A stretch of 64,000 bases of DNA from Rhizoclosmatium globosum (lineage: Eukaryota > Chytridiomycota > Chytridiomycetes > Chytridiales > Chytriomycetaceae). Location of the stretch: the NCBI GenBank assembly GCA_002104985.1, contig MCGO01000180.1, positions 1-64,000 on the forward strand, written 5' to 3'. This document shows positions 1-63,656 of the stretch, piece by piece; position 1 is the stretch's first letter; each line of letters begins with the position of its first letter. The position numbers and the translations under genes are program-made. Below the pieces are notes generated by a model that saw only the letters and a list, made by a program, of their open reading frames with translations, did not search any database and was not told the DNA's origin.

Positions 1-99
1 CGAGGCGTCGGTGAATGACGCCATCATCAAGTTCCATGCGAGAAGGTTGATCACAGCGATGGCTGCGATTGCGAGGAGAAGTTGACGGCTGGAAAGCAT
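1..99 (-). CDS. 5' end of a gene leaving the window (signal-anchor protein)
   Basis: An ATG at position 99 on the minus strand opens a frame that stays open to the window edge (33 codons). It starts MLSSRQLLLAIAAIAVINLL, a short polar start followed by a strongly hydrophobic stretch, as in a signal peptide or signal anchor, so the product is probably secreted or membrane-bound. The rest lies outside the window and the family cannot be told. It reads in the same direction as the ABC transporter remnant upstream, about 100 bp away. Confidence 0.55.
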   Translation of the reverse strand, partial: MLSSRQLLLAIAAIAVINLLAWNLMMASFTDAS

Positions 100-47339: not shown

Positions 47340-47412
47340 GCCGCCTTAGCTCATCTGGGAGAGCGTAAGACTGAAGATCTTAAGGTAGCGTGTTCGATCC
47401 ACGCAGGCGGCA
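47340..47412 (+). tRNA. tRNA-Phe (GAA), unit 1
   Basis: Acceptor GCCGCCT/AGGCGGC fully paired, D arm GCTC/GAGC, anticodon loop CTGAAGA (GAA), T arm GCGTG/CACGC with loop TTCGATC. No intron. Confidence 0.95.
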
Positions 47413-47419
47413 TACGTTT

Positions 47420-47492
47420 GGGGATCTAGCTCAAATGGTAGAGCGCTCGCTTAGCATGCGAGAGGCACTGGGATCAATGCCCAGGTTCTCCA
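47420..47492 (+). tRNA. tRNA-Ala (AGC), unit 1
   Basis: Acceptor GGGGATC/GTTCTCC with the G3:U70 alanine identity pair and a T-T mismatch at 6:67; anticodon loop TTAGCAT (AGC); T arm CTGGG/CCCAG. It starts 7 nt after tRNA-Phe. No TTTT within 90 nt downstream. Confidence 0.93.
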
Positions 47493-48304
47493 ACTCTTTC
47501 TTTATTGTGCGGAACCAGTACCAGTTTCTTGGAGTCATGTATGGAGGTTGCATCTGTGCGAAACAGAGAGGAGGAGTGTGGTTGTTGCAGCTTTTGGTTC
47601 ACAGAGACACATTACAATGAAATAACAAATAATACGCCAGGCTTACACTAAAAGCAAGATCAATCAGGTCATTAATATTGTTTGGAACAAAAAAATCTTC
47701 AAGGAAAATTTTTTTCTCTTCATTTATACGTTTCAGCATTGCACGGCAACATGAAAATTAGAAAGCAAGGCAGCAGTATGCCAAGAGAAGCAATGGAGGG
47801 GAAGCAGAGAAAGAAGGTGGGGGGACAGGGGAGAGCAGAAAAGGAGAGGAGATGAAGTTATTAGTTCTGGACCTGAATTTTTGTGTCTTTGTGGGGAAAG
47901 GCATATATTTTTGTGGGACAAAAGAACAAATAGAAGCACCCAGAGCACTCAAAACTCAATAATGCAGGTCTGAGAGAATGTTGATAGTAAAGCGAGTGCG
48001 TGACTAATGCATTTATTTGTTTTGCAAGTATTACAACTAAAGTAGAAGGATTATAAAAATAGAGTAAGAAGGCAAGTAGTTGCATCTGAGTCTGTTTGAT
48101 GCTGGGCGGGGGCATTATTGATTTGGATTGTTGATTGTTGATTCAGAATTGCAATTTTAATCCAGACCTGGACCTGGATCCAAAACAAGCTCATTTCAGG
48201 AATCAATCAATAAAATTGCTCATTTTGTACGCAGTTTGGCTTTATTTGAAGAGGGTGGACACTGTATAAAAGCTCCTAACATTATTTCCCTGCAAAAGTT
48301 AGCA

Positions 48305-48377
48305 GCCGCCTTAGCTCATCTGGGAGAGCGTAAGACTGAAGATCTTAAGGTAGCGTGTTCGATCCACGCAGGCGGCA
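48305..48377 (+). tRNA. tRNA-Phe (GAA), unit 2
   Basis: Identical to the unit 1 gene. Confidence 0.95.
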
Positions 48378-48384
48378 TACGTTT

Positions 48385-48457
48385 GGGGATCTAGCTCAAA
48401 TGGTAGAGCGCTCGCTTAGCATGCGAGAGGCACTGGGATCAATGCCCAGGTTCTCCA
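48385..48457 (+). tRNA. tRNA-Ala (AGC), unit 2
   Basis: Identical to the unit 1 gene. Confidence 0.93.
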
Positions 48458-49269
48458 ACTCTTTCTTTATTGTGCGGAACCAGTACCAGTTTCTTGGAGT
48501 CATGTATGGAGGTTGCATCTGTGCGAAACAGAGAGGAGGAGTGTGGTTGTTGCAGCTTTTGGTTCACAGAGACACATTACAATGAAATAACAAATAATAC
48601 GCCAGGCTTACACTAAAAGCAAGATCAATCAGGTCATTAATATTGTTTGGAACAAAAAAATCTTCAAGGAAAATTTTTTTCTCTTCATTTATACGTTTCA
48701 GCATTGCACGGCAACATGAAAATTAGAAAGCAAGGCAGCAGTATGCCAAGAGAAGCAATGGAGGGGAAGCAGAGAAAGAAGGTGGGGGGACAGGGGAGAG
48801 CAGAAAAGGAGAGGAGATGAAGTTATTAGTTCTGGACCTGAATTTTTGTGTCTTTGTGGGGAAAGGCATATATTTTTGTGGGACAAAAGAACAAATAGAA
48901 GCACCCAGAGCACTCAAAACTCAATAATGCAGGTCTGAGAGAATGTTGATAGTAAAGCGAGTGCGTGACTAATGCATTTATTTGTTTTGCAAGTATTACA
49001 ACTAAAGTAGAAGGATTATAAAAATAGAGTAAGAAGGCAAGTAGTTGCATCTGAGTCTGTTTGATGCTGGGCGGGGGCATTATTGATTTGGATTGTTGAT
49101 TGTTGATTCAGAATTGCAATTTTAATCCAGACCTGGACCTGGATCCAAAACAAGCTCATTTCAGGAATCAATCAATAAAATTGCTCATTTTGTACGCAGT
49201 TTGGCTTTATTTGAAGAGGGTGGACACTGTATAAAAGCTCCTAACATTATTTCCCTGCAAAAGTTAGCA

Positions 49270-49342
49270 GCCGCCTTAGCTCATCTGGGAGAGTGTAAGA
49301 CTGAAGATCTTAAGGTAGCGTGTTCGATCCACGCAGGCGGCA
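49270..49342 (+). tRNA. tRNA-Phe (GAA), unit 3, D-stem variant
   Basis: As unit 1 except GAGC to GAGT in the 3' strand of the D stem, turning a G-C pair into G-U. Confidence 0.9.
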
Positions 49343-49349
49343 TACGTTT

Positions 49350-49422
49350 GGGGATCTAGCTCAAATGGTAGAGCGCTCGCTTAGCATGCGAGAGGCACTG
49401 GGATCAATGCCCAGGTTCTCCA
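49350..49422 (+). tRNA. tRNA-Ala (AGC), unit 3
   Basis: Identical to the unit 1 gene. Confidence 0.93.
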
Positions 49423-50265
49423 ACTCTTTCTTTATTGTGCGGAACCAGTACCAGTTTCTTGGAGTCATGTATGGAGGTTGCATCTGTGCGAAACAGAGAG
49501 GAGGAGTGTGGTTGTTGCAGCTTTTGGTTCACAGAGACACATTACAATGAAATAACAAATAATACGCCAGGCTTACACTAAAAGCAAGATCAATCAGGTC
49601 ATTAATATTGTTTGGAACAAAAAAATCTTCGAGGAAAATTATTGTTTGGAACAAAAAATCTTCAAGGAAAATTTTTTTCTCTTCATTTATACGTTTCAGC
49701 ATTGCACAGCAACATGAAAATTAGAAAGCAAGGCAGCAGTATGCCAAGAGAAGCAATGGAGGGAAGCAGAGAAAGAAGGTGGGGGACAGGGGAGAGCAGA
49801 AAAGGAGAGGAGATGAAGTTATTAGTTCTGGACCTGAATTTTTGTGTCTTTGTGGGGAAAGGCATATATTTTTGTGGGACAAAAGAACAAATAGAAGCAC
49901 CCAGAGCACTCAAAACTCAATAATGCAGGTCTGAGAGAATGTTGATAGTAAAGCGAGTGCGTGACTAATGCATTTATTTGTTTTGCAAGTATTACAACTA
50001 AAGTAGAAGGATTATAAAAATAGAGTAAGAAGGCAAGTAGTTGCATCTGAGTCTGTTTGATGCTGGGCGGGGGCATTATTGATTTGGATTGTTGATTGTT
50101 GATTCAGAATTGCAATTTTAATCCAGACCTGGACCTGGATCCAAAACAAGCTCATTTCAGGAATCAATCAATAAAATTGCTCATTTTGTACGCAGTTTGG
50201 CTTTATTTGAAGAGGGTGGACACTGTATAAAAGCTCCTAACATTATTTCCCTGCAAAAGTTAGCA

Positions 50266-50338
50266 GCCGCCTTAGCTCATCTGGGAGAGCGTAAGACTGA
50301 AGATCTTAAGGTAGCGTGTTCGATCCACGCAGGCGGCA
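50266..50338 (+). tRNA. tRNA-Phe (GAA), unit 4
   Basis: Identical to unit 1; the spacer after it reads TACCTTT instead of TACGTTT. Confidence 0.95.
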
Positions 50339-50345
50339 TACCTTT

Positions 50346-50418
50346 GGGGATCTAGCTCAAATGGTAGAGCGCTCGCTTAGCATGCGAGAGGCACTGGGAT
50401 CAATGCCCAGGTTCTCCA
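50346..50418 (+). tRNA. tRNA-Ala (AGC), unit 4
   Basis: Identical to the unit 1 gene. Confidence 0.93.
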
Positions 50419-51264
50419 ACTCTTTCTTTATTGTGCGGAACCAGTACCAGTTTCTTGGAGTCATGTATGGAGGTTGCATCTGTGCGAAACAGAGAGGAGG
50501 AGTGTGGTTGTTGCAGCTTTTGGTTCACAGAGACACATTACAATGAAATAACAAATAATACGCCAGGCTTACACTAAAAGCAAGATCAATCAGGTCATTA
50601 ATATTGTTTGGAACAAAAAAATCTTCGAGGAAAATTATTGTTTGGAACAAAAAAATCTTCAAGGAAAATTTTTTTCTCTTCATTTATACGTTTCAGCATT
50701 GCACAGCAACATGAAAATTAGAAAGCAAGGCAGCAGTATGCCAAGAGAAGCAATGGAGGGGAAGCAGAGAAAGAAGGTGGGGGGACAGGGGAGAGCAGAA
50801 AAGGAGAGGAGATGAAGTTATTAGTTCTGGACCTGAATTTTTGTGTCTTTGTGGGGAAAGGCATATATTTTTGTGGGACAAAAGAACAAATAGAAGCACC
50901 CAGAGCACTCAAAACTCAATAATGCAGGTCTGAGAGAATGTTGATAGTAAAGCGAGTGCGTGACTAATGCATTTATTTGTTTTGCAAGTATTACAACTAA
51001 AGTAGAAGGATTATAAAAATAGAGTAAGAAGGCAAGTAGTTGCATCTGAGTCTGTTTGATGCTGGGCGGGGGCATTATTGATTTGGATTGTTGATTGTTG
51101 ATTCAGAATTGCAATTTTAATCCAGACCTGGACCTGGATCCAAAACAAGCTCATTTCAGGAATCAATCAATAAAATTGCTCATTTTGTACGCAGTTTGGC
51201 TTTATTTGAAGAGGGTGGACACTGTATAAAAGCTCCTAACATTATTTCCCTGCAAAAGTTAGCA

Positions 51265-51284
51265 GCCGCCTTAGCTCATCTGGG
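51265..51284 (+). pseudogene. 5' fragment of tRNA-Phe split by the 5.7-kb element (copy 1)
   Basis: GCCGCCTTAGCTCATCTGGG, the first 20 nt of tRNA-Phe up to the end of the A box, then the element. The missing part resumes at 56988. Confidence 0.95.
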
Positions 51285-51285
51285 G

Positions 51286-51308
51286 TATTGTTGGAGGGAA
51301 CGAAATCC
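51286..51308 (+). repeat. Left imperfect terminal inverted repeat, copy 1
   Basis: 23 bp, 16 matches to the reverse complement of 56961-56983. Confidence 0.6.
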
Positions 51309-51839
51309 GTAGGGGGGAACAATGGGGAGGATTGGAAAATTTTCGCACAGGATTGCAACCTCACCATCACGCTGTCACCGCCCCAAATCAAGTGCGGGAG
51401 CAATGGAAGATGTCGAGCAGATGTTTGGGGATGTAATAGAAGCGATGGGAGGTGGTGGGAGGGAGAGGTGGATGGATGTTGGTTTGACTGAATCCCACAA
51501 GGTTTCCTGTCGACACACAGTTGCCCTCCTGGGTCCAAATGGCACGAGTGATCCGCCATCAAACTGGAAATGGTATGTAGGAGGAGTTTGGAGGGAACCG
51601 GGGGCCTTGGAGCGACGGATCGTGATGGAAACACTGGCGCACACGATCCCGCCAGAACAGTCGCACAGCTAACTTCCATTGCTCTGATATAGACACTCTC
51701 ATGAGTTTTTTATCGCACAGTGACCTGCTCGGTCGTTGATCTCTATATCGCTCGCAGTATACTCGCTGGTCGCAAGTCCTCACCATTTTGTAAAACAAAA
51801 CAAAACAAATAAAAGCAAATGAATTGGAAAAGAACTTTA
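51309..51839. other. Element subterminal region downstream of the gene
   Basis: About 530 bp between the left end and the stop codon of the element gene. Frames of 116-145 codons exist on both strands but show no family, composition or splice support; treated as non-coding. Confidence 0.4.
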
Positions 51840-54800
51840 CTAAATCATACGAGCAATCTCCCTGCGCTTCTTTCGATCCTCCGCACGCTTCGCGTCAGCG
51901 GCAGCCTTCTTCCGACTCTTCACCTCTTCGTCCACAACATCAAAACCCAAATCAGGTTTCTCAATTTCGCACGGAGCTTTCCCCACCACAGTCAAAGAAA
52001 ACTTGAGGTAATTTCCAGTGGTTTTGTCTTTCACCCAGAATTTCTCCTTATTGTTGTAGACAGCTGTGATTCCATCCAAGACTGTAACGGCTTTCCCACT
52101 TTCCCGCAAGACTTCCATCGCACAATAGACATGAGCCACAACGTTTGTGTAGCGAGTGTACCACTGAACAATTCCAGGATTCGTAGTCTTGTGTCGCCAA
52201 ACAAGATGGTGCCGTCTATTCATAGTGGGAAAATAATTGACAGCGGTGGTGTAAACAAGTCGAAGTCGATCGAGATCAGCAGTTTCTCCGAAAGCAGCCA
52301 ACGTACAAACGGGAACATTGACGTCAGATTCAGGCAGTGACTCAGGATCATACGCCTTCCTGTACTTCACAGTGAGAAGACCCCACTCCAAGATTTCAAC
52401 AAAGTCTGAATCATTGACTGCAGCATCACCGGGAATCATAACATCTATCTCAGCAGCCGCTTCATTGACAGGAACAGCAATTTTTTCGACAGTAGCAGGT
52501 TCAGCAGCGGGAGCAACAACAACAGTGGCAGAGACAAGTGTGGGTGACAATGCAGCAGAGTTAGAGGCACCAGTGGAAGCAAGTATCAATTTGTGCAGTG
52601 AGTCAATCTTCTCAGACATTTCATTGATCTGGTTGGACGTATCTTTCTGGGCTTGTTTCAATTCAGTTTGAGATTCCAAGAGAAGGTTCGGCAAAAATTT
52701 CGCAAGAGCGCGTCCAACGTCTGCACAATCCTCTGCCAGTGTTCTGTCAATCTTGAACGGTGTCTCCTTTCGCAACTCAAGGGCGAGAATTTCCTGTCGC
52801 TCAACAATGACGCACACATTTCGGAAATCATCTGACTGGAATGCAACTGGAAGAAGTTCCCACACCGGAGATACTGAGGTACTGTTGTTAATATACGAGT
52901 ACAGCAGAGGAGAAACACCTACCAACAACTCCTGTCTCTTTATCAGGTGCCCAAGGGACCAAATCTTTCTCGAAAACACGAAGAAAGGCTAATCCATAGA
53001 AGAAAGCGTCAACGCCGTACTCCCACCAACCAAGGACGGCCCACATCGAATCTTCCGAGTACATTTCCTGCTGCAACTCCTCATTGAACCAAGTACACAT
53101 TGCCTTGCGCTTCTCGGGATCATCCATTGAAACACGAAACTCCACAACAAGGCCATCAAAAAGCAACGAAGAGAGCGATGTCGGAATAGGAGTCTTCCGG
53201 TGGATGGGGATAGATTTTGCTTTCGGGTCATGCCAGCCTTGAAACTTCACGATTTCCGGATGTTGTGAGAACTGTGTGTGCAGCAACGCTTAAACCAAAT
53301 ATAAGAGAGCAAAATAGACCTACAGCGTAATAGATATCCATCACGTGCTTCTCCATACCAGAGAAATTCCACAGAGACTCCAGCTTGTCTTGGTCAATCC
53401 CCATTCGACGCCCACGCTCCGACCACAACGAGCGAAAGATATGACCAGCTTGGCCTTCCAACTTCATCCCAAACTCGAACAGCACTTTGACAATTTGGTC
53501 GCGGAACGTATGGTAGGCTGGTTCAGATTCCCAGTCAGACACGGCAAAGAAATACATTTTCATCAAGCCAGCAATTCCATGGTGAAATGGGAGTCGGGCC
53601 CGCTTTTGTTCTTGTGTCTCAAGATATCCATGGAATTCCATCGCCATCTCCAACATTGTCATGAAGATTTGGCACATGAGCGGGTGCTGCGTTTCGGGGA
53701 TCTGGAAGTATCGACTGTCAAGCTTTCCTTCTTTTGCAAGTTTTTCCTATGAAATAAGTCAGTCACCATATTTTCGCGAAGTACAAAACATACGGAAGTT
53801 TTAGATCCAGTGATCATGAGATTGGACCCATAGAGAATGTCTCCATTTTGTTCGGGAAGTGGAGCTGATGGCAGAGTCAGATGCTCAGGCACAAGAGCCT
53901 TCGAAGAATCGCACACAAGTTTCATGAGTCCAACTTTCGATAAGTCAATGCTGGTAAGGTCGGAGGATCGGCCACCTGAGTTGAGTTCTGCAATCATGAA
54001 TCGAATCGCAGTCCAACCAGCGCGACCATGAACTCGGTCTGCAACAAACAAGAAACGAAGCATATCCAGAATATTATTGTAGTCAAGTAGCTCGTTCAGT
54101 CTTGCAGTCAGTCCTCCGTGAGGATTATATGACTGCTTTCTGTGATTGATTCAGATTAGAAAGGAAGTTTACTGCAAAGAACAAGCGAGTTTACTTTTTT
54201 ACAGTGAGGGCCTTGTGCTCATTTGCAGAAGTATGTGTCCGGGCGTGTCGACTGCATTTGTCACTTCCTCGTCCGCCACACCCGTACTCTTCAGAATCAA
54301 TGTGGGTGTTAAGTGGGCGAAGAATTCGAGCAATGAAGGCCATTGAGTTGTGGGCTGATTTGATGACAGCCTGATAAGAATTAGACCAAGAACAAGACGA
54401 ATTAAGTACTCACACTTTTCTTTCCGATATCTCCATCGAATTCAGCAGCCTGGGACGGGGTCTTGAAAAGGCGATCCAAGAAGAGAGATATTGCGAGAGT
54501 GGATGGACAATACCGGTAAGTAGCAAGCATCTCCGCAACGTCCTCGCCAGCAGTAGCTCTTTCCCTTAAAATGTCACCAACCATGTCCTGTGTAACTTTA
54601 GACCAACCATTTCAAGCAAAGAACACGATCACTTACACAATAGTAACCATAATATCGAATATGGGAAATCATGGAGCTCATGTTTTCATTACTGGCAACG
54701 CACGCGAGGTTCTTTAGTTGGCAGAAAACACCTTCTCGTTTGGCAAAGTCATTGCGAAATAGAGGAGCCCAGCCGTCAACGTAGGCAATGGCAAGTTCTT

Positions 54801-56691
54801 CAACGCATTTATCTCCACGAAAGGCTGCAGGAATGACGTTGAAGTGCATTTGTGCTTCCAAATCATCAACGACTCTCCCATCAGCCTGTACTCGCACAAC
54901 TACAGACTTTGTCAGAAAACATCGCAATAAACGAACGAGTATCACACACCTTTCTCCTTGATATAGTCCCAGAGTTTGTACATCAGTTCACCCGCATTTT
55001 CCCGGTCTTCCTTCTTACGAAAAGCAACCATTGGCGATTCACGCTTGAAATCAGGAGGCATTGGTACAGGCCAGTCATTAGGACCCAATGGCGCCTCTCG
55101 ACGAGCTGGACCGACAGGAGTGCGACCAGTCGTCGATCGCAAAGTTTTGGCCGGCGGTTCGACTGCATCAATTACGACGCCATCTTGAATGACTAATTCG
55201 ACTGCGCGCTTAACCCGTGGTCCTTGCTTTCCTTTTGGTTTCGAAGTTGAAGCGACAGTAGAGTTGGATGTCGTAGGAGTTTGCGGAGACGAGGTCTCAG
55301 GAGGAATAGAGGTAGTCGTAGAAGAAGTGGGGACATTGGTAGTAGTTGTAGGGGAGGCCAGTTCGGCAGCAATGGTAGTCTTCCGTGGAACGAAGTGCTT
55401 CGACCCAACAAGTTTGTACTTTTGGCCGTTCTTTCCGACAGTTCCTGGAGCTGTAAGCACTAAGTTAGATAATGTGGATGTAGTAAATAAACGGACCTTC
55501 GGTGTGGTTCTCCTTGCACCTCTTGCACGCACGACCGGATTTGTGAGCAACTGAACAAGAGTCCGCGACGTGGACCCCGTGATTGGACAAGATGCACATA
55601 GTTGCCTTATTTTCGGTGGTACACGGCTGTTGACAAGTTACGCACAGCGGTGGCGGCAAAGCGGGGCCGGCTTTCTTCTTTGTCGAAACAGCGGCAGTGA
55701 CAGCAGACGTGGCCGTTGAGCTCGAGGCGGCGGAAGGACTCGTGGCAGTTGTAGTGGCAGCGGTGGCGGAAGCAGCACGCGAAGGAGTTTGACGGGTAGT
55801 GCGTGGAGGAGGGGGTGGTAGTGGTGGTGGCAGTGGCGGAAGAGGAGCCGGGGGACGTGGATGGAACGCGCCGAGGTCGTGGCGCCGCGTCCCGGGATGC
55901 GTAGACAGGTGAAGCGGGATGGCGCCTTCACCTGGGCCAATGGAGGTGCTGTATTATGAATTTTAACACTTGACATTAGATAAATAAATGAAAAACGAAG
56001 CCACGTACATTTGATCTTCGCGATTCTCGCGTCTCGCACGAATGTGTTGTGCGAGCATCATTCGGTACTTATCGGGTCGGGCGATGGACAGGTGGACGCC
56101 ATTCTCTTCCCAACGGCTCGTGTCAATCCAGTTCGGATTTCCTGGTGGATTCAGTTGGTGGTCTATCGGAAACGCGTCTGCCTCTGGAAATGCGGGCCCC
56201 TCCGAATATCCGGCAGACATGTTGACAGGTGTAGATGGTTTGGACTTGTTGGAGAAAAACGAGACGGGCACATTGATCTTGGCACGGTGGCATCGACTTT
56301 CTGACGTGCAAATAAAAAACCCTTGACTTTCTCCAATGGTGCGACTGGCGCAACGGCGATGGAGGTGTTGATGGCAGTAGAAACAAGTGATGTAGTGGTA
56401 TTCTGAATCGCTCTCGTCGCAATCTTCGTCGCATTCCTGGCAGCGAGTCGCTTTTCTCTTTCCTGATGTAGATTCGCTCTAATGCGTAAGTGATAGATTA
56501 GTTGAATGAATCGAAATCGCGTCGAATTCGCGCGAACAATGAGGTTTGACAGGCAGCGTGCGTAACACCGTGCTTGCTGTTGGATGTGTATGTACCTGAG
56601 TGAATAAACGTGAAAATTTGGTTAGATTTGGTGGTGTTGTGAATGCAAGGAGTGTGGGTGGTGGTGGGGGGAGGGAGGGACGCGGGTGCAT
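51840..56691 (-). CDS. Element-encoded 1434-residue protein with two N-terminal Cys/His clusters, family unknown
   Basis: Eleven exons join without a stop: 56596-56691, 56009-56478, 55497-55948, 54950-55450, 54637-54899, 54414-54587, 54195-54370, 53794-54139, 53320-53746, 52923-53288, 51840-52873. All introns have GT-AG ends and lengths of 31-117 nt. From the N-terminus: a PHD-like cluster (CQECDEDC, then YITCFYCHQHLHRRC), Pro/Ser/Thr-rich linkers, a second cluster (CVTCQQPC ... CKRCKENH), helical blocks with CGGRGSDKCSRHARTH, a Trp-rich middle (WAVLGWWEYGVDAFFYG), a coiled coil (ELKQAQKDTSNQINEMSEKI) and a basic end (KKAAADAKRAEDRKKRRE). The fingers suit DNA or chromatin binding; a transposase role is inferred only from the setting. 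First ATG in frame is 56691. Confidence 0.7.
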
Positions 56692-56960
56692 CCCTGTCCT
56701 GTGGCAGGGTGGTTGGGTGGTGAAAAGCTCAGGATTTCGATGGTGTCCAGGCGTCACTGGCTGGATTTTGTTTTAGAAAAGGGCTCGCTCTATTTTCTGT
56801 GGGGGATTTCAGAGGACGCTGACGCTCATTTTGGACGGGTGAGGGGATTTGAAAAATGCGCTACGCTCGCCAAATTGTCAGAATTGTCAGAGAACACCCG
56901 AGACGTCGCGAAGCGACGGATCGGGGGTTCGACCACTCAAAATAGAAAAAATTTTATGTG
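56692..56960. other. Element subterminal region upstream of the gene
   Basis: Promoter side of the element gene; contains a small perfect hairpin at 56904-56918 and a direct repeat AATTGTCAG near 56873. Confidence 0.45.
56904..56918. repeat. Perfect 6-bp-stem hairpin near the right element end
   Basis: CGTCGC-GAA-GCGACG; also present in copy 2. It could be a protein-binding palindrome. Confidence 0.6.
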
Positions 56961-56983
56961 GGATTTCAACACATCCCTCAATA
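56961..56983 (-). repeat. Right imperfect terminal inverted repeat, copy 1
   Basis: 23 bp; pairs with 51286-51308 in inverted orientation. Confidence 0.6.
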
Positions 56984-56987
56984 TTAA

Positions 56988-57043
56988 GGGAGAGCGTAAG
57001 ACTGAAGATCTTAAGGTAGCGTGTTCGATCCACGCAGGCGGCA
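56988..57043 (+). pseudogene. 3' fragment of tRNA-Phe split by the element (copy 1)
   Basis: Starts GGGAGAGCG and runs to the normal 3' end, with intact anticodon and T arms (B box) but no acceptor 5' strand or A box. It is followed by an intact tRNA-Ala. Confidence 0.95.
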
Positions 57044-57050
57044 TACGTTT

Positions 57051-57123
57051 GGGGATCTAGCTCAAATGGTAGAGCGCTCGCTTAGCATGCGAGAGGCACT
57101 GGGATCAATGCCCAGGTTCTCCA
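57051..57123 (+). tRNA. tRNA-Ala (AGC), unit after element copy 1
   Basis: Identical to the unit 1 gene. Its upstream partner is a broken tRNA-Phe, so whether it is expressed depends on its own internal promoter. Confidence 0.92.
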
Positions 57124-57935
57124 ACTCTTTCTTTATTGTGCGGAACCAGTACCAGTTTCTTGGAGTCATGTATGGAGGTTGCATCTGTGCGAAACAGAGA
57201 GGAGGAGTGTGGTTGTTGCAGCTTTTGGTTCACAGAGACACATTACAATGAAATAACAAATAATACGCCAGGCTTACACTAAAAGCAAGATCAATCAGGT
57301 CATTAATATTGTTTGGAACAAAAAAATCTTCAAGGAAAATTTTTTTCTCTTCATTTATACGTTTCAGCATTGCACGGCAACATGAAAATTAGAAAGCAAG
57401 GCAGCAGTATGCCAAGAGAAGCAATGGAGGGGAAGCAGAGAAAGAAGGTGGGGGGACAGGGGAGAGCAGAAAAGGAGAGGAGATGAAGTTATTAGTTCTG
57501 GACCTGAATTTTTGTGTCTTTGTGGGGAAAGGCATATATTTTTGTGGGACAAAAGAACAAATAGAAGCACCCAGAGCACTCAAAACTCAATAATGCAGGT
57601 CTGAGAGAATGTTGATAGTAAAGCGAGTGCGTGACTAATGCATTTATTTGTTTTGCAAGTATTACAACTAAAGTAGAAGGATTATAAAAATAGAGTAAGA
57701 AGGCAAGTAGTTGCATCTGAGTCTGTTTGATGCTGGGCGGGGGCATTATTGATTTGGATTGTTGATTGTTGATTCAGAATTGCAATTTTAATCCAGACCT
57801 GGACCTGGATCCAAAACAAGCTCATTTCAGGAATCAATCAATAAAATTGCTCATTTTGTACGCAGTTTGGCTTTATTTGAAGAGGGTGGACACTGTATAA
57901 AAGCTCCTAACATTATTTCCCTGCAAAAGTTAGCA

Positions 57936-57955
57936 GCCGCCTTAGCTCATCTGGG
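57936..57955 (+). pseudogene. 5' fragment of tRNA-Phe split by the element (copy 2)
   Basis: Same 20 nt as at 51265-51284, with the same junction. Confidence 0.95.
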
Positions 57956-60900
57956 GTATTGTTGGAGGGAACGAAATCCGTAGGGGGGAACAATGGGGAG
58001 GATTGGAAAATTTTCGCACAGGATTGCAACCTCACCATCACGCTGTCACCGCCCCAAATCAAGTGCGGGAGCAATGGAAGATGTCGAGCAGATGTTTGGG
58101 GATGTAATAGAAGCGATGGGAGGTGGTGGGAGGGAGAGGTGGATGGATGTTGGTTTGACTGAATCCCACAAGGTTTCCTGTCGACACACAGTTGCCCTCC
58201 TGGGTCCAAATGGCACGAGTGATCCGCCATCAAACTGGAAATGGTATGTAGGAGGAGTTTGGAGGGAACCGGGGGCCTTGGAGCGACGGATCGTGATGGA
58301 AACACTGGCGCACACGATCCCGCCAGAACAGTCGCACAGCTAACTTCCATTGCTCTGATATAGACACTCTCATGAGTTTTTTATCGCACAGTGACCTGCT
58401 CGGTCGTTGATCTCTATATCGCTCGCAGTATACTCGCTGGTCGCAAGTCCTCACCATTTTGTAAAACAAAACAAAACAAATAAAAGCAAATGAATTGGAA
58501 AAGAACTTTACTAAATCATACGAGCAATCTCCCTGCGCTTCTTTCGATCCTCCGCACGCTTTGCGTCAGCGGCAGCCTTCTTCCGACTCTTCACCTCTTC
58601 GTCCACAACATCAAAACCCAAATCAGGTTTCTCAATTTCGCACGGAGCTTTCCCCACCACAGTCAAAGAAAACTTGAGGTAATTTCCAGTGGTTTTGTCT
58701 TTCACCCAGAATTTCTCCTTATTGTTGTAGACAGCTGTGATTCCATCCAAGACTGTAACGGCTTTCCCACTTTCCCGCAAGACTTCCATCGCACAATAGA
58801 CATGAGCCACAACGTTTGTGTAGCGAGTGTACCACTGAACAATTCCAGGATTCGTAGTCTTGTGTCGCCAAACAAGATGGTGCCGTCTATTCATAGTGGG
58901 AAAATAATTGACAGCGGTGGTGTAAACAAGTCGAAGTCGATCGAGATCAGCAGTTTCTCCGAAAGCAGCCAACGTACAAACGGGAACATTGACGTCAGAT
59001 TCAGGCAGTGACTCAGGATCATACGCCTTCCTGTACTTCACAGTGAGAAGACCCCACTCCAAGATTTCAACAAAGTCTGAATCATTGACTGCAGCATCAC
59101 CGGGAATCATAACATCTATCTCAGCAGCCGCTTCATTGACAGGAACAGCAATTTTTTCGACAGTAGCAGGTTCAGCAGCGGGAGCAACAACAACAGTGGC
59201 AGAGACAAGTGTGGGTGACAATGCAGCAGAGTTAGAGGCACCAGTGGAAGCAAGTATCAATTTGTGCAGTGAGTCAATCTTCTCAGACATTTCATTGATC
59301 TGGTTGGACGTATCTTTCTGGGCTTGTTTCAATTCAGTTTGAGATTCCAAGAGAAGGTTCGGCAAAAATTTCGCAAGAGCGCGTCCAACGTCTGCACAAT
59401 CCTCTGCCAGTGTTCTGTCAATCTTGAACGGTGTCTCCTTTCGCAACTCAAGGGCGAGAATTTCCTGTCGCTCAACAATGACGCACACATTTGGAAATCA
59501 TCTGACTGGAATGCAACTGGAAGAAGTTCCCACACCGGAGATACTGAGGTACTGTTGTTAATATACGAGTACAGCAGAGGAGAAACACCTACCAACAACT
59601 CCTGTCTCTTTATCAGGTGCCCAAGGGACCAAATCTTTCTCGAAAACACGAAGAAAGGCTAATCCATAGAAGAAAGCGTCAACGCCGTACTCCCACCAAC
59701 CAAGGACGGCCCACATCGAATCTTCCGAGTACATTTCCTGCTGCAACTCCTCATTGAACCAAGTACACATTGCCTTGCGCTTCTCGGGATCATCCATTGA
59801 AACACGAAACTCCACAACAAGGCCATCAAAAAGCAACGAAGAGAGCGATGTCGGAATAGGAGTCTTCCGGTGGATGGGGATAGATTTTGCTTTCGGGTCA
59901 TGCCAGCCTTGAAACTTCACGATTTCCGGATGTTGTGAGAACTGTGTGTGCAGCAACGCTTAAACCAAATATAAGAGAGCAAAATAGACCTACAGCGTAA
60001 TAGATATCCATCACGTGCTTCTCCATACCAGAGAAATTCCACAGAGACTCCAGCTTGTCTTGGTCAATCCCCATTCGACGCCCACGCTCCGACCACAACG
60101 AGCGAAAGATATGACCAGCTTGGCCTTCCAACTTCATCCCAAACTCGAACAGCACTTTGACAATTTGGTCGCGGAACGTATGGTAGGCTGGTTCAGATTC
60201 CCAGTCAGACACGGCAAAGAAATACATTTTCATCAAGCCAGCAATTCCATGGTGAAATGGGAGTCGGGCCCGCTTTTGTTCTTGTGTCTCAAGATATCCA
60301 TGGAATTCCATCGCCATCTCCAACATTGTCATGAAGATTTGGCACATGAGCGGGTGCTGCGTTTCGGGGATCTGGAAGTATCGACTGTCAAGCTTTCCTT
60401 CTTTTGCAAGTTTTTCCTATGAAATAAGTCAGTCACCATATTTTCGCGAAGTACAAAACATACGGAAGTTTTAGATCCAGTGATCATGAGATTGGACCCA
60501 TAGAGAATGTCTCCATTTTGTTGGGAAGTGGAGCTGATGGCAGAGTCAGATGCTCAGGCACAAGAGCCTTCGAAGAATCGCACACAAGTTTCATGAGTCC
60601 AACTTTCGATAAGTCAATGCTGGTAAGGTCGGAGGATCGGCCACCTGAGTTGAGTTCTGCAATCATGAATCGAATCGCAGTCCAACCAGCGCGACCATGA
60701 ACTCGGTCTGCAACAAACAAGAAACGAAGCATATCCAGAATATTATTGTAGTCAAGTAGCTCGTTCAGTCTTGCAGTCAGTCCTCCGTGAGGATTATATG
60801 ACTGCTTTCTGTGATTGATTCAGATTAGAAAGGAAGTTTACTGCAAAGAACAAGCGAGTTTACTTTTTTACAGTGAGGGCCTTGTGCTCATTTGCAGAAG

Positions 60901-63656
60901 TATGTGTCCGGGCGTGTCGACTGCATTTGTCACTTCCTCGTCCGCCACACCCGTACTCTTCAGAATCAATGTGGGTGTTAAGTGGGCGAAGAATTCGAGC
61001 AATGAAGGCCATTGAGTTGTGGGCTGATTTGATGACAGCCTGATAAGAATTAGACCAAGAACAAGACGAATTAAGTACTCACACTTTTCTTTCCGATATC
61101 TCCATCGAATTCAGCAGCCTGGGACGGGGTCTTGAAAAGGCGATCCAAGAAGAGAGATATTGCGAGAGTGGATGGACAATACCGGTAAGTAGCAAGCATC
61201 TCCGCAACGTCCTCGCCAGCAGTAGCTCTTTCCCTTAAAATGTCACCAACCATGTCCTGTGTAACTTTAGACCAACCATTTCAAGCAAAGAACACGATCA
61301 CTTACACAATAGTAACCATAATATCGAATATGGGAAATCATGGAGCTCATGTTTTCATTACTGGCAACGCACGCGAGGTTCTTTAGTTGGCAGAAAACAC
61401 CTTCTCGTTTGGCAAAGTCATTGCGAAATAGAGGAGCCCAGCCGTCAACGTAGGCAATGGCAAGTTCTTCAACGCATTTATCTCCACGAAAGGCTGCAGG
61501 AATGACGTTGAAGTGCATTTGTGCTTCCAAATCATCAACGACTCTCCCATCAGCCTGTACTCGCACAACTACAGACTTTGTCAGAAAACATCGCAATAAA
61601 CGAACGAGTATCACACACCTTTCTCCTTGATATAGTCCCAGAGTTTGTACATCAGTTCACCCGCATTTTCCCGGTCTTCCTTCTTACGAAAAGCAACCAT
61701 TGGCGATTCACGCTTGAAATCAGGAGGCATTGGTACAGGCCAGTCATTAGGACCCAATGGCGCCTCTCGACGAGCTGGACCGACAGGAGTGCGACCAGTC
61801 GTCGATCGCAAAGTTTTGGCCGGCGGTTCGACTGCATCAATTACGACGCCATCTTGAATGACTAATTCGACTGCGCGCTTAACCCGTGGTCCTTGCTTTC
61901 CTTTTGGTTTCGAAGTTGAAGCGACAGTAGAGTTGGATGTCGTAGGAGTTTGCGGAGACGAGGTCTCAGGAGGAATAGAGGTAGTCGTAGAAGAAGTGGG
62001 GACATTGGTAGTAGTTGTAGGGGAGGCCAGTTCGGCAGCAATGGTAGTCTTCCGTGGAACGAAGTGCTTCGACCCAACAAGTTTGTACTTTTGGCCGTTC
62101 TTTCCGACAGTTCCTGGAGCTGTAAGCACTAAGTTAGATAATGTGGATGTAGTAAATAAACGGACCTTCGGTGTGGTTCTCCTTGCACCTCTTGCACGCA
62201 CGACCGGATTTGTGAGCAACTGAACAAGAGTCCGCGACGTGGACCCCGTGATTGGACAAGATGCACATAGTTGCCTTATTTTCGGTGGTACACGGCTGTT
62301 GACAAGTTACGCACAGCGGTGGCGGCAAAGCGGGGCCGGCTTTCTTCTTTGTCGAAACAGCGGCAGTGACAGCAGACGTGGCCGTTGAGCTCGAGGCGGC
62401 GGAAGGACTCGTGGCAGTTGTAGTGGCAGCGGTGGCGGAAGCAGCACGCGAAGGAGTTTGACGGGTAGTGCGTGGAGGAGGGGGTGGTAGTGGTGGTGGC
62501 AGTGGCGGAAGAGGAGCCGGGGGACGTGGATGGAACGCGCCGAGGTCGTGGCGCCGCGTCCCGGGATGCGTAGACAGGTGAAGCGGGATGGCGCCTTCAC
62601 CTGGGCCAATGGAGGTGCTGTATTATGAATTTTAACACTTGACATTAGATAAATAAATGAAAAACGAAGCCACGTACATTTGATCTTCGCGATTCTCGCG
62701 TCTCGCACGAATGTGTTGTGCGAGCATCATTCGGTACTTATCGGGTCGGGCGATGGACAGGTGGACGCCATTCTCTTCCCAACGGCTCGTGTCAATCCAG
62801 TTCGGATTTCCTGGTGGATTCAGTTGGTGGTCTATCGGAAACGCGTCTGCCTCTGGAAATGCGGGCCCCTCCGAATATCCGGCAGACATGTTGACAGGTG
62901 TAGATGGTTTGGACTTGTTGGAGAAAAACGAGACGGGCACATTGATCTTGGCACGGTGGCATCGACTTTCTGACGTGCAAATAAAAAACCCTTGACTTTC
63001 TCCAATGGTGCGACTGGCGCAACGGCGATGGAGGTGTTGATGGCAGTAGAAACAAGTGATGTAGTGGTATTCTGAATCGCTCTCGTCGCAATCTTCGTCG
63101 CATTCCTGGCAGCGAGTCGCTTTTCTCTTTCCTGATGTAGATTCGCTCTAATGCGTAAGTGATAGATTAGTTGAATGAATCGAAATCGCGTCGAATTCGC
63201 GCGAACAATGAGGTTTGACAGGCAGCGTGCGTAACACCGTGCTTGCTGTTGGATGTGTATGTACCTGAGTGAATAAACGTGAAAATTTGGTTAGATTTGG
63301 TGGTGTTGTGAATGCAAGGAGTGTGGGTGGTGGTGGGGGGAGGGAGGGACGCGGGTGCATCCCTGTCCTGTGGCAGGGTGGTTGGGTGGTGAAAAGCTCA
63401 GGATTTCGATGGTGTCCAGGCGTCACTGGCTGGATTTTGTTTTAGAAAAGGGCTCGCTCTATTTTCTGTGGGGGATTTCAGAGGACGCTGACGCTCATTT
63501 TGGACGGGTGAGGGGATTTGAAAAATGCGCTACGCTCGCCAAATTGTCAGAATTGTCAGAGAACACCCGAGACGTCGCGAAGCGACGGATCGGGGGTTCG
63601 ACCACTCAAAATAGAAAAAATTTTATGTGGGATTTCAACACATCCCTCAATATTAA
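57956..63656 (-). mobile_element. Unclassified 5.7-kb element in tRNA-Phe, copy 2
   Basis: Nearly identical to copy 1 with the same ends and the same tRNA junctions. It is 2 nt shorter because of one missing base near 59491 and one near 60522, both inside the element gene. Confidence 0.8.
58511..63360 (-). pseudogene. Element gene, copy 2, with two 1-nt frameshifts
   Basis: Same 11-exon structure as 51840-56691, shifted by 6669-6671 bp. In exon 11 the stretch for DDFRNVC has lost one base (near 59491), and in exon 8 the stretch for PLPEQNGD has lost one base (near 60522). Each shifts the frame and truncates the product. Either this copy is dead or these are consensus errors in a hard-to-assemble repeat. 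Confidence 0.7.

Follow-up and report, generated by a model that had tools for sequence, protein, structure and literature searches.

A very probable Crypton-like tyrosine recombinase transposon lineage in Rhizoclosmatium globosum with tRNA G18-G19 as its proposed crossover core

The element described here lies in a window of 64,000 nucleotides of Rhizoclosmatium globosum DNA (the whole stretch that was analysed) and splits a tRNA-Phe gene. Our reading, based on sequence comparison, is that it very probably belongs to an autonomous Crypton-like lineage of tyrosine recombinase (YR) DNA transposons that uses the tRNA nucleotides G18-G19 as the crossover core.

The window contains a tandem array of tRNA-Phe/tRNA-Ala units with a 965-bp period that begins upstream of 47340 and in which four intact tRNA-Phe genes are followed by two split ones. 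The four intact units (47340..50420, + strand; tRNA-Phe genes at 47340, 48305, 49270 and 50266) carry the empty site, CATCTGGGAGAGCG, and the empty sites used in this work are such paralogous tRNA genes rather than the corresponding locus of a different strain. In the first split gene, the tRNA-Phe(GAA) 5' part (GCCGCCTTAGCTCATCTGGG; 51265..51284, + strand) is identical to nucleotides 1-20 of the intact array genes and stops at G18-G19-G20, where the Pol III A box ends. It is followed by GTATTG and not by AGAGCG, i.e. the tRNA is not rebuilt, and the gene resumes as GGGAGAGCG in the 3' part (56988..57043, + strand), which opens with a second GGG. Because GGG lies on either side of the element (the left one at 51282..51284, + strand, with GG being tRNA G18-G19 and also present at the family B, C and D junctions that were read), the direct repeat cannot exceed 3 bp. 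The junctions at 51284/56988 and the intact array genes agree with the first-pass annotation, which had described a 5.7-kb element splitting tRNA-Phe at the end of the A box with flanks that permit a duplication of at most 3 bp. Copy 1 of the element, which we call family A, is 5703 bp long (51285..56987), with boundaries supported by a 99% identical copy in a tRNA-Gln gene (G000:C301) that has the same left boundary, and the same right one except for 6 bp absent there. Copy 2 (57956..63656), recognized by sequence identity, is a tandem duplicate of the array unit with its element; it is 99.95% identical to copy 1 over 6000 bp, flanks included, so the two copies represent one insertion plus array duplication. 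The two single-base frameshifts in the exons of copy 2 indicate that the integrity of the element varies among array units. A second tandem tRNA-Phe/tRNA-Ala array (L011; G000:C1:149000-158500) has nine intact pairs in the stretch read.

By themselves, the window copies are a single event in a tandem array, as would be expected from coincidence or from a host gene whose locus was duplicated into a tRNA gene, an explanation whose probability we consider close to nil, given that other contigs carry independent copies in several different tRNA genes, with a tRNA half at either end. A search of the genome (56.9 Mb, 420 contigs), the check that the first-pass annotation had suggested, found these copies beyond the array; pure array duplication was also rejected, and the junctions on C301, C394 and C42 already contradict a host locus. 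The third family A copy (G000:C301:102689-108386; 99% identical to copy 1) is on another contig and lies between two parts of a tRNA-Gln(TTG) gene, with AAAACCAGGG before the element and GGGTGATCACCACTACACTATACAACA after it, while an intact tRNA-Gln (L072) reads GTGTTGTATAGTGTAGTGGTGATCACCCTGGTTTTTGATACC on the opposite strand. This copy is in inverted orientation, about 10 nt from G18-G19. Its reading frame has no stop, and the A/Phe and A/Gln copies differ by 14 synonymous and 9 non-synonymous codons (pN/pS 0.20; neutrality test, P 1.3e-4), so the protein was under purifying selection during their divergence.

A protein search with family A identified two diverged relatives, one on C394 (family B), which matches A at 45% (residues 709-1421), 33% (20-594) and 41% (652-712) identity, and one on C408 (family C), with a single matching stretch of 24% identity. 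The family B element (5210 bp) splits a tRNA-Gln(CTG) gene; the tRNA 5' half ends in GTAGTGG, the element runs from GTATG to TTTTTTGG and the gene resumes with GGTTATCACC, as compared with GTAGTGGTTATCACC in the intact tRNA-Gln (L070). The family C element (5464 bp) splits a tRNA-Phe gene after nucleotide 19 (CATCTGG), and on its far side, where the right junction is eroded, tRNA nucleotides 20-26 are missing. A predicted protein, P0002 (NCBI, Rhizoclosmatium sp. JEL0117), has 18 extra N-terminal residues where the C408 element adjoins the tRNA, which makes a deletion across this junction likely. Since Rfam (E up to 5) matched none of 13 loci, among them the split tRNA genes, the tRNA halves were identified by their identity to intact genes, and the tRNA-Cys described below by eye and by its copy number. 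The earlier suggestion of a mobile tRNA-gene element is borne out by the copy outside the array in tRNA-Gln and by the relatives in tRNA-Gln and tRNA-Phe. One tRNA-Gln(CTG) gene (L071; G000:C32:24065 region) is without part of its D-arm (GTGTTGTATTATCACC), which could be an excision scar at a target site or plain decay.

The family A element carries a single recombinase gene (51840..56691, - strand), modelled with 11 exons separated by GT..AG introns and encoding 1427 aa, of which the first exon and the start are uncertain. Exons 1-6 (- strand) are 56691-56596, 56478-56009, 55948-55497, 55450-54950, 54899-54637 and 54587-54414, and exons 7-11 (- strand) are 54370-54195, 54139-53794, 53746-53324, 53271-52923 and 52873-51840. 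P0001, an NCBI partial prediction from Rhizoclosmatium hyalinum (923 aa, exons 4-11), equals the model except at 3/923 residues. We aligned the catalytic regions of families A-F (alignment A3; families B-F with 12-47% identity to A, the A-D rows cut by hand and the D row spliced from two exons) and found 11 columns invariant in all six proteins: R54, K110, G119, D122, G169, H214, R217, W238, Y252, H267 and P283. Six of these columns (R54, K110, H214, R217, W238 and Y252) form the tyrosine-recombinase set R-K-H-x-x-R-W-Y, and in a separate alignment (A1) the same R, K, H, R, W and Y are invariant in 3/3 proteins. R, K, H-x-x-R, W and Y in this order are the active site of tyrosine recombinases, and the W-to-Y spacing of 14 is presumably close to that of Flp. 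In the window, the box I Arg (SGGRSSDLTSIDL) and the beta-hairpin Lys (TGSKT), i.e. R54 and K110, are in the exon at 53794..54139 (- strand); box II (HIFR), the Trp (SLWNF) and the candidate nucleophile Tyr (MDIYY), i.e. H214, R217, W238 and Y252, are in the exon at 53324..53746 (- strand). A Cys/His-rich, PHD-like stretch near the N-terminus (CQEC..CFYCHQHLHRRC..C; 56009..56478, - strand) was seen by eye and matches Pfam PHD_4 at just E 7.7. A tyrosine recombinase is the best reading of the encoded protein, judged by these residues, where the first-pass annotation had recognized no catalytic signature in a protein whose hexad is shared with five diverged relatives.

Database searches added little to the alignments. 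No Pfam family passed its cut-off with any YR protein or protein piece tested from families A-F; the family C protein has a sub-threshold match to NDC10_II (E 5.8e-4) and the family E protein a weaker one (E 0.016, sub-threshold), with none to this domain in the D and F proteins or in the A and B proteins and pieces. PHROGs gave matches of unknown function alone (E 0.13 or worse), PDB sequence searches chance-level matches alone (E 0.43 and worse) and a scan of IMG/VR no match to the element protein, and P0001 and P0002, both from Rhizoclosmatium, were the sole matches of the protein searches (in one of which the best 7987 candidates were scored). AlphaFold run without a usable alignment produced two models (pLDDT 34.8 and 29.0), neither usable for the fold. 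The hexad in all six proteins and the sub-threshold NDC10_II match in family C lead us to place the element, previously left unclassified, in a Crypton-like YR lineage.

Several other classes were considered. Pfam at E up to 10 showed neither an RT nor a DDE family in the window protein, and DIRS/Ngaro elements were rejected for want of a reverse transcriptase. Starships were rejected because there was no Pfam match in this protein to DUF3435, the domain of the Starship captain YR, which we assume Pfam to hold. KDZ, Plavaka and CACTA transposase domains had no Pfam match in the window protein, so far as Pfam covers these families. A tRNA intron or homing element was rejected because the insertion is in the D-loop, which is not a known position of tRNA introns.

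The ends of family A are imperfect inverted repeats of 23 bp, as had been noted before: the left arm, TATTGTTGGAGGGAACGAAATCC (51286..51308, + strand), and the reverse complement of the right arm, TATTGAGGGATGTGTTGAAATCC, followed by TTAA (56961..56983, - strand), match at 16/23 positions, and 2 of 400 randomly chosen pairs of 60-bp segments from the element matched equally well. Such ends, along with a 3-bp repeat, could also belong to a DDE-type transposon with terminal inverted repeats (TIRs) and a 2-3-bp duplication (CACTA/hAT-like or Dada-like), and Dada elements insert in tRNA genes, according to the available part of PMC8869645. We consider a DDE-type transposon very improbable since Pfam shows no DDE family, the GG(G) is identical at different sites, the YR hexad is conserved while acidic residues account for one of the 11 invariant columns (D122), and the same source gives target site duplications (TSDs) of 6-7 bp for Dada. 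Dada and other DDE elements were therefore rejected on the absence of DDE in Pfam, the presence of YR residues instead and the repeat of at most 3 bp, in line with the earlier remark that the element is unlike Dada. A recombinase core with its arms is a better reading of the short repeat and the inverted ends than a transposase duplication with TIRs. When the family A ends are placed side by side, TTAA, GGG and G form an 8-bp core, TTAAGGGG, between the arms; the accessible sections of PMC3212892 describe YR spacers of 6-8 bp, with which this core agrees, and arms of 11-13 bp, versus the 23 bp in family A. The motif GAAATCC recurs about 15-25 nt inside each of the four A and B ends; by eye, the B ends share little else. 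No inverted arms or A/B motifs were found by eye at the C and D ends, and family A is the only one in which clear inverted arms were measured. The direct repeat at the junctions is at most 3 bp in A and 2 bp in B, and the 6 bp absent from the C301 copy belong to the right arm adjoining the core.

A search with the C408 protein found more distant YR-like genes. Family D consists of four copies (C42, C1, C365 and C415) that share 97.8-100% identity along some 3.6 kb. The C42 and C1 elements abut the 3' part of tRNA-Glu(TTC), CCTATAGAGGGTCAGGATTCCGCCC (intact on C5: AGTCCAACGGTCAGGATTCC). The tRNA-Glu 5' half, TCCCATATAGTCCAACGG, is at C42:62678 and C1:34938 and the 3' halves are at C42:53764 and C1:26160 on the same strand, so that about 8.8 kb is inserted, the second junction being placed by coordinates only; because C42 and C1 share flanks, we treat them as a single event. 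On C365, the element end that abuts the tRNA-Glu 3' part on C42 and C1 is instead next to GGTAGAGCGTAGGACTGCAAATCCCGAGG, which we read by eye as the 3' portion of tRNA-Cys(GCA); this sequence has 22 exact places in the genome and 5 more with one mismatch (35-base pattern). The D/Cys insertion is thus read on one side only, and the D/Glu insertion on one side with the other fixed by coordinates. The copy on C415 adjoins a tRNA-Glu 5' half, with no tRNA-Glu 3' match within one mismatch on its other side; a guessed tRNA-Glu pattern had 0 matches, and a guessed Cys 5'-half pattern had 3 identical matches, 0 of them on C365. The family D element (about 8.8 kb; G000:C42 ~53810-62677, L066/L067, and likewise on C1, C365 and C415) encodes a Pif1-type helicase besides the recombinase (Pif1_2B, E 1.8e-10; PIF1, E 2.2e-5, just under the cut-off), and since the helicase DNA is at matching distance in 4/4 copies, the tRNA-Cys one included, the helicase travels with the element. 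Short tandem repeats with a unit near AAAAGGTTATGTTCATACCTATGGTGTCGTAATGACAC occur within family D (L067:680-900). Two fragments (G000:C118:31063-31621 and C279:72165-72723), 88-89% identical to the D helicase region and about 2.2 kb from a tRNA-Glu 5' half, are possibly an older relative of D. The genome also has further diverged groups of YR-like genes (L048-L052, L054, L058-L061), namely C113 with C415:84629, two on C46, C301:163509 with C76, two on C395, and C101 with C301:154092; no tRNA was found in the 3.3-3.6-kb pieces around them (about 1.5 kb per side), which neither supports nor refutes tRNA targeting.

All six insertion events that could be placed lie in tRNA genes (A/Phe, A/Gln-TTG, B/Gln-CTG, C/Phe, D/Glu and D/Cys-like), and not in ordinary loci as a host gene would be, the outcome that the first-pass annotation had set against its own proposal. 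Six random insertions would all fall in tRNA genes with a probability of about 4e-18, assuming 1000 tRNA genes that make up 0.13% of the genome. The A/Phe, B, C and D/Glu insertions lie at G18-G19 and share one orientation, the 3' end of the recombinase gene facing the tRNA 5' half, and D/Cys fits the D-loop GG on the one side read, giving 5/6 at, or fitting, GG. The sixth event, A/Gln-TTG, lies on the opposite strand, in a tRNA-Gln stretch that is palindromic, GGTGATCACC; because this palindrome offers GG followed by TGATCACC on both strands, the exception points to recognition of the local DNA sequence. Alternatively, Pol III factors (TFIIIC on the A box) could tether the same YR element, which would then need little sequence recognition. 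The position of the insertions at the edge of the A box would fit this, and the accessible text of PMC5006619 reports that Dictyostelium TRE5-A depends on an intact B box and, probably, on the Pol III complex. We think tethering unlikely, since the insertions hit one dinucleotide within the gene instead of being scattered over the flanks, and since the C301 exception is explained by its sequence. The genome has 22 tRNA-Phe 3' parts outside the element matches (one being the C408 remnant), 22 Gln places (one being the split C394 gene and one, L071, without D-arm letters) and 12 Glu-TTC 3' parts (two split), and the host probably tolerates split genes because its tRNA genes are multicopy.

In the reading that we prefer, we infer a circular intermediate, strand exchange and target recognition by DNA sequence, as follows. 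The recombinase would bind the two imperfect inverted ends, and in the circle these ends would form one attachment site with two arms around the 8-bp core. Recombination of this site with the conserved D-loop nucleotides G18-G19, where the A box ends, would then split the tRNA gene in one preferred orientation, and the flanking GG(G) would be the common crossover core and not a staggered-cut duplication. G18-G19 is present in nearly every tRNA. Given this near-universal dinucleotide and multicopy tRNA genes, one recombinase could insert into Phe, Gln, Glu and Cys genes without much harm to the host.

The lineage resembles Cryptons (CryptonF/S/A/I/V) in having a YR as the sole recognisable mobility enzyme and no RT, and its families C and E weakly match NDC10_II, Ndc10 being what we take to be a Crypton relative. 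Family A has, like Cryptons, a YR without RT or DDE, and D has the helicase besides. Published Cryptons lack TIRs and carry terminal direct repeats of 4-6 bp, and tRNA is not mentioned in the available sections of PMC3212892, whereas the present lineage has a 2-3-bp core, imperfect inverted arms in A, a tRNA-gene target and no Pfam match to GCR1_C in the proteins tested. We did not file it as a Crypton because these published features of repeats and ends are unmatched. Dada shares the insertion inside tRNA genes, with several lineages inserting at nucleotides 8-13 within the A box (PMC8869645, in part), but it has a DDE transposase, a 6-7-bp TSD and another tRNA position. The tyrosine integrases of prokaryotic islands and archaea also combine a YR with a tRNA-gene attB (PMC8371274, in part); they usually restore the tRNA gene, according to portions of PMC4383910 and PMC8371274, whereas here it is split at the D-loop. 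The Phaeovirus YR in Ectocarpus is similar in its insertion at a CC/GG dinucleotide and its inverted repeats, but the sites given in the available part of PMC13236599 are introns, 3' UTRs and intergenic DNA, with no mention of tRNA. Ty1/Ty2 and the Dictyostelium TRE/DGLT-A elements likewise have tRNA genes as safe sites. Ty3 also uses tRNA genes. Ty1/Ty2 and TRE/DGLT-A differ in being retrotransposons that insert beside, not inside, the gene (excerpts of PMC13269885 and PMC5006619). Inserted cryptophyte PLVs have no tRNA genes near their integration sites in the portion of PMC12220804 available. Among the matches listed from open-access full texts, seen in part, no eukaryotic YR transposon, Crypton or otherwise, was described in tRNA genes.

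The finding can thus be classified, as a lineage of Crypton-like YR transposons whose target habit is new. In bacteria and archaea, tRNA genes are favoured sites of tyrosine integrases, and the eukaryotic users of tRNA genes that we found described are retrotransposons, beside the gene, and the DDE element Dada, inside it. A YR lineage with the D-loop GG as its core has a simple rule of target choice; it is a candidate safe-site integrase for eukaryotic cells, and it tests whether a preference for tRNA genes is a repeated outcome of the site geometry of tyrosine recombinases. We lean slightly toward a wider view, in which chytrids host a separate, ancient superfamily of tRNA-gene YR transposons with G18-G19 as the core, one enzyme serving several isotypes and a D branch with a Pif1-type helicase. 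If this is true, the superfamily would be a eukaryotic counterpart, arisen independently or by descent, of the tRNA-gene integrases of bacteria and archaea.
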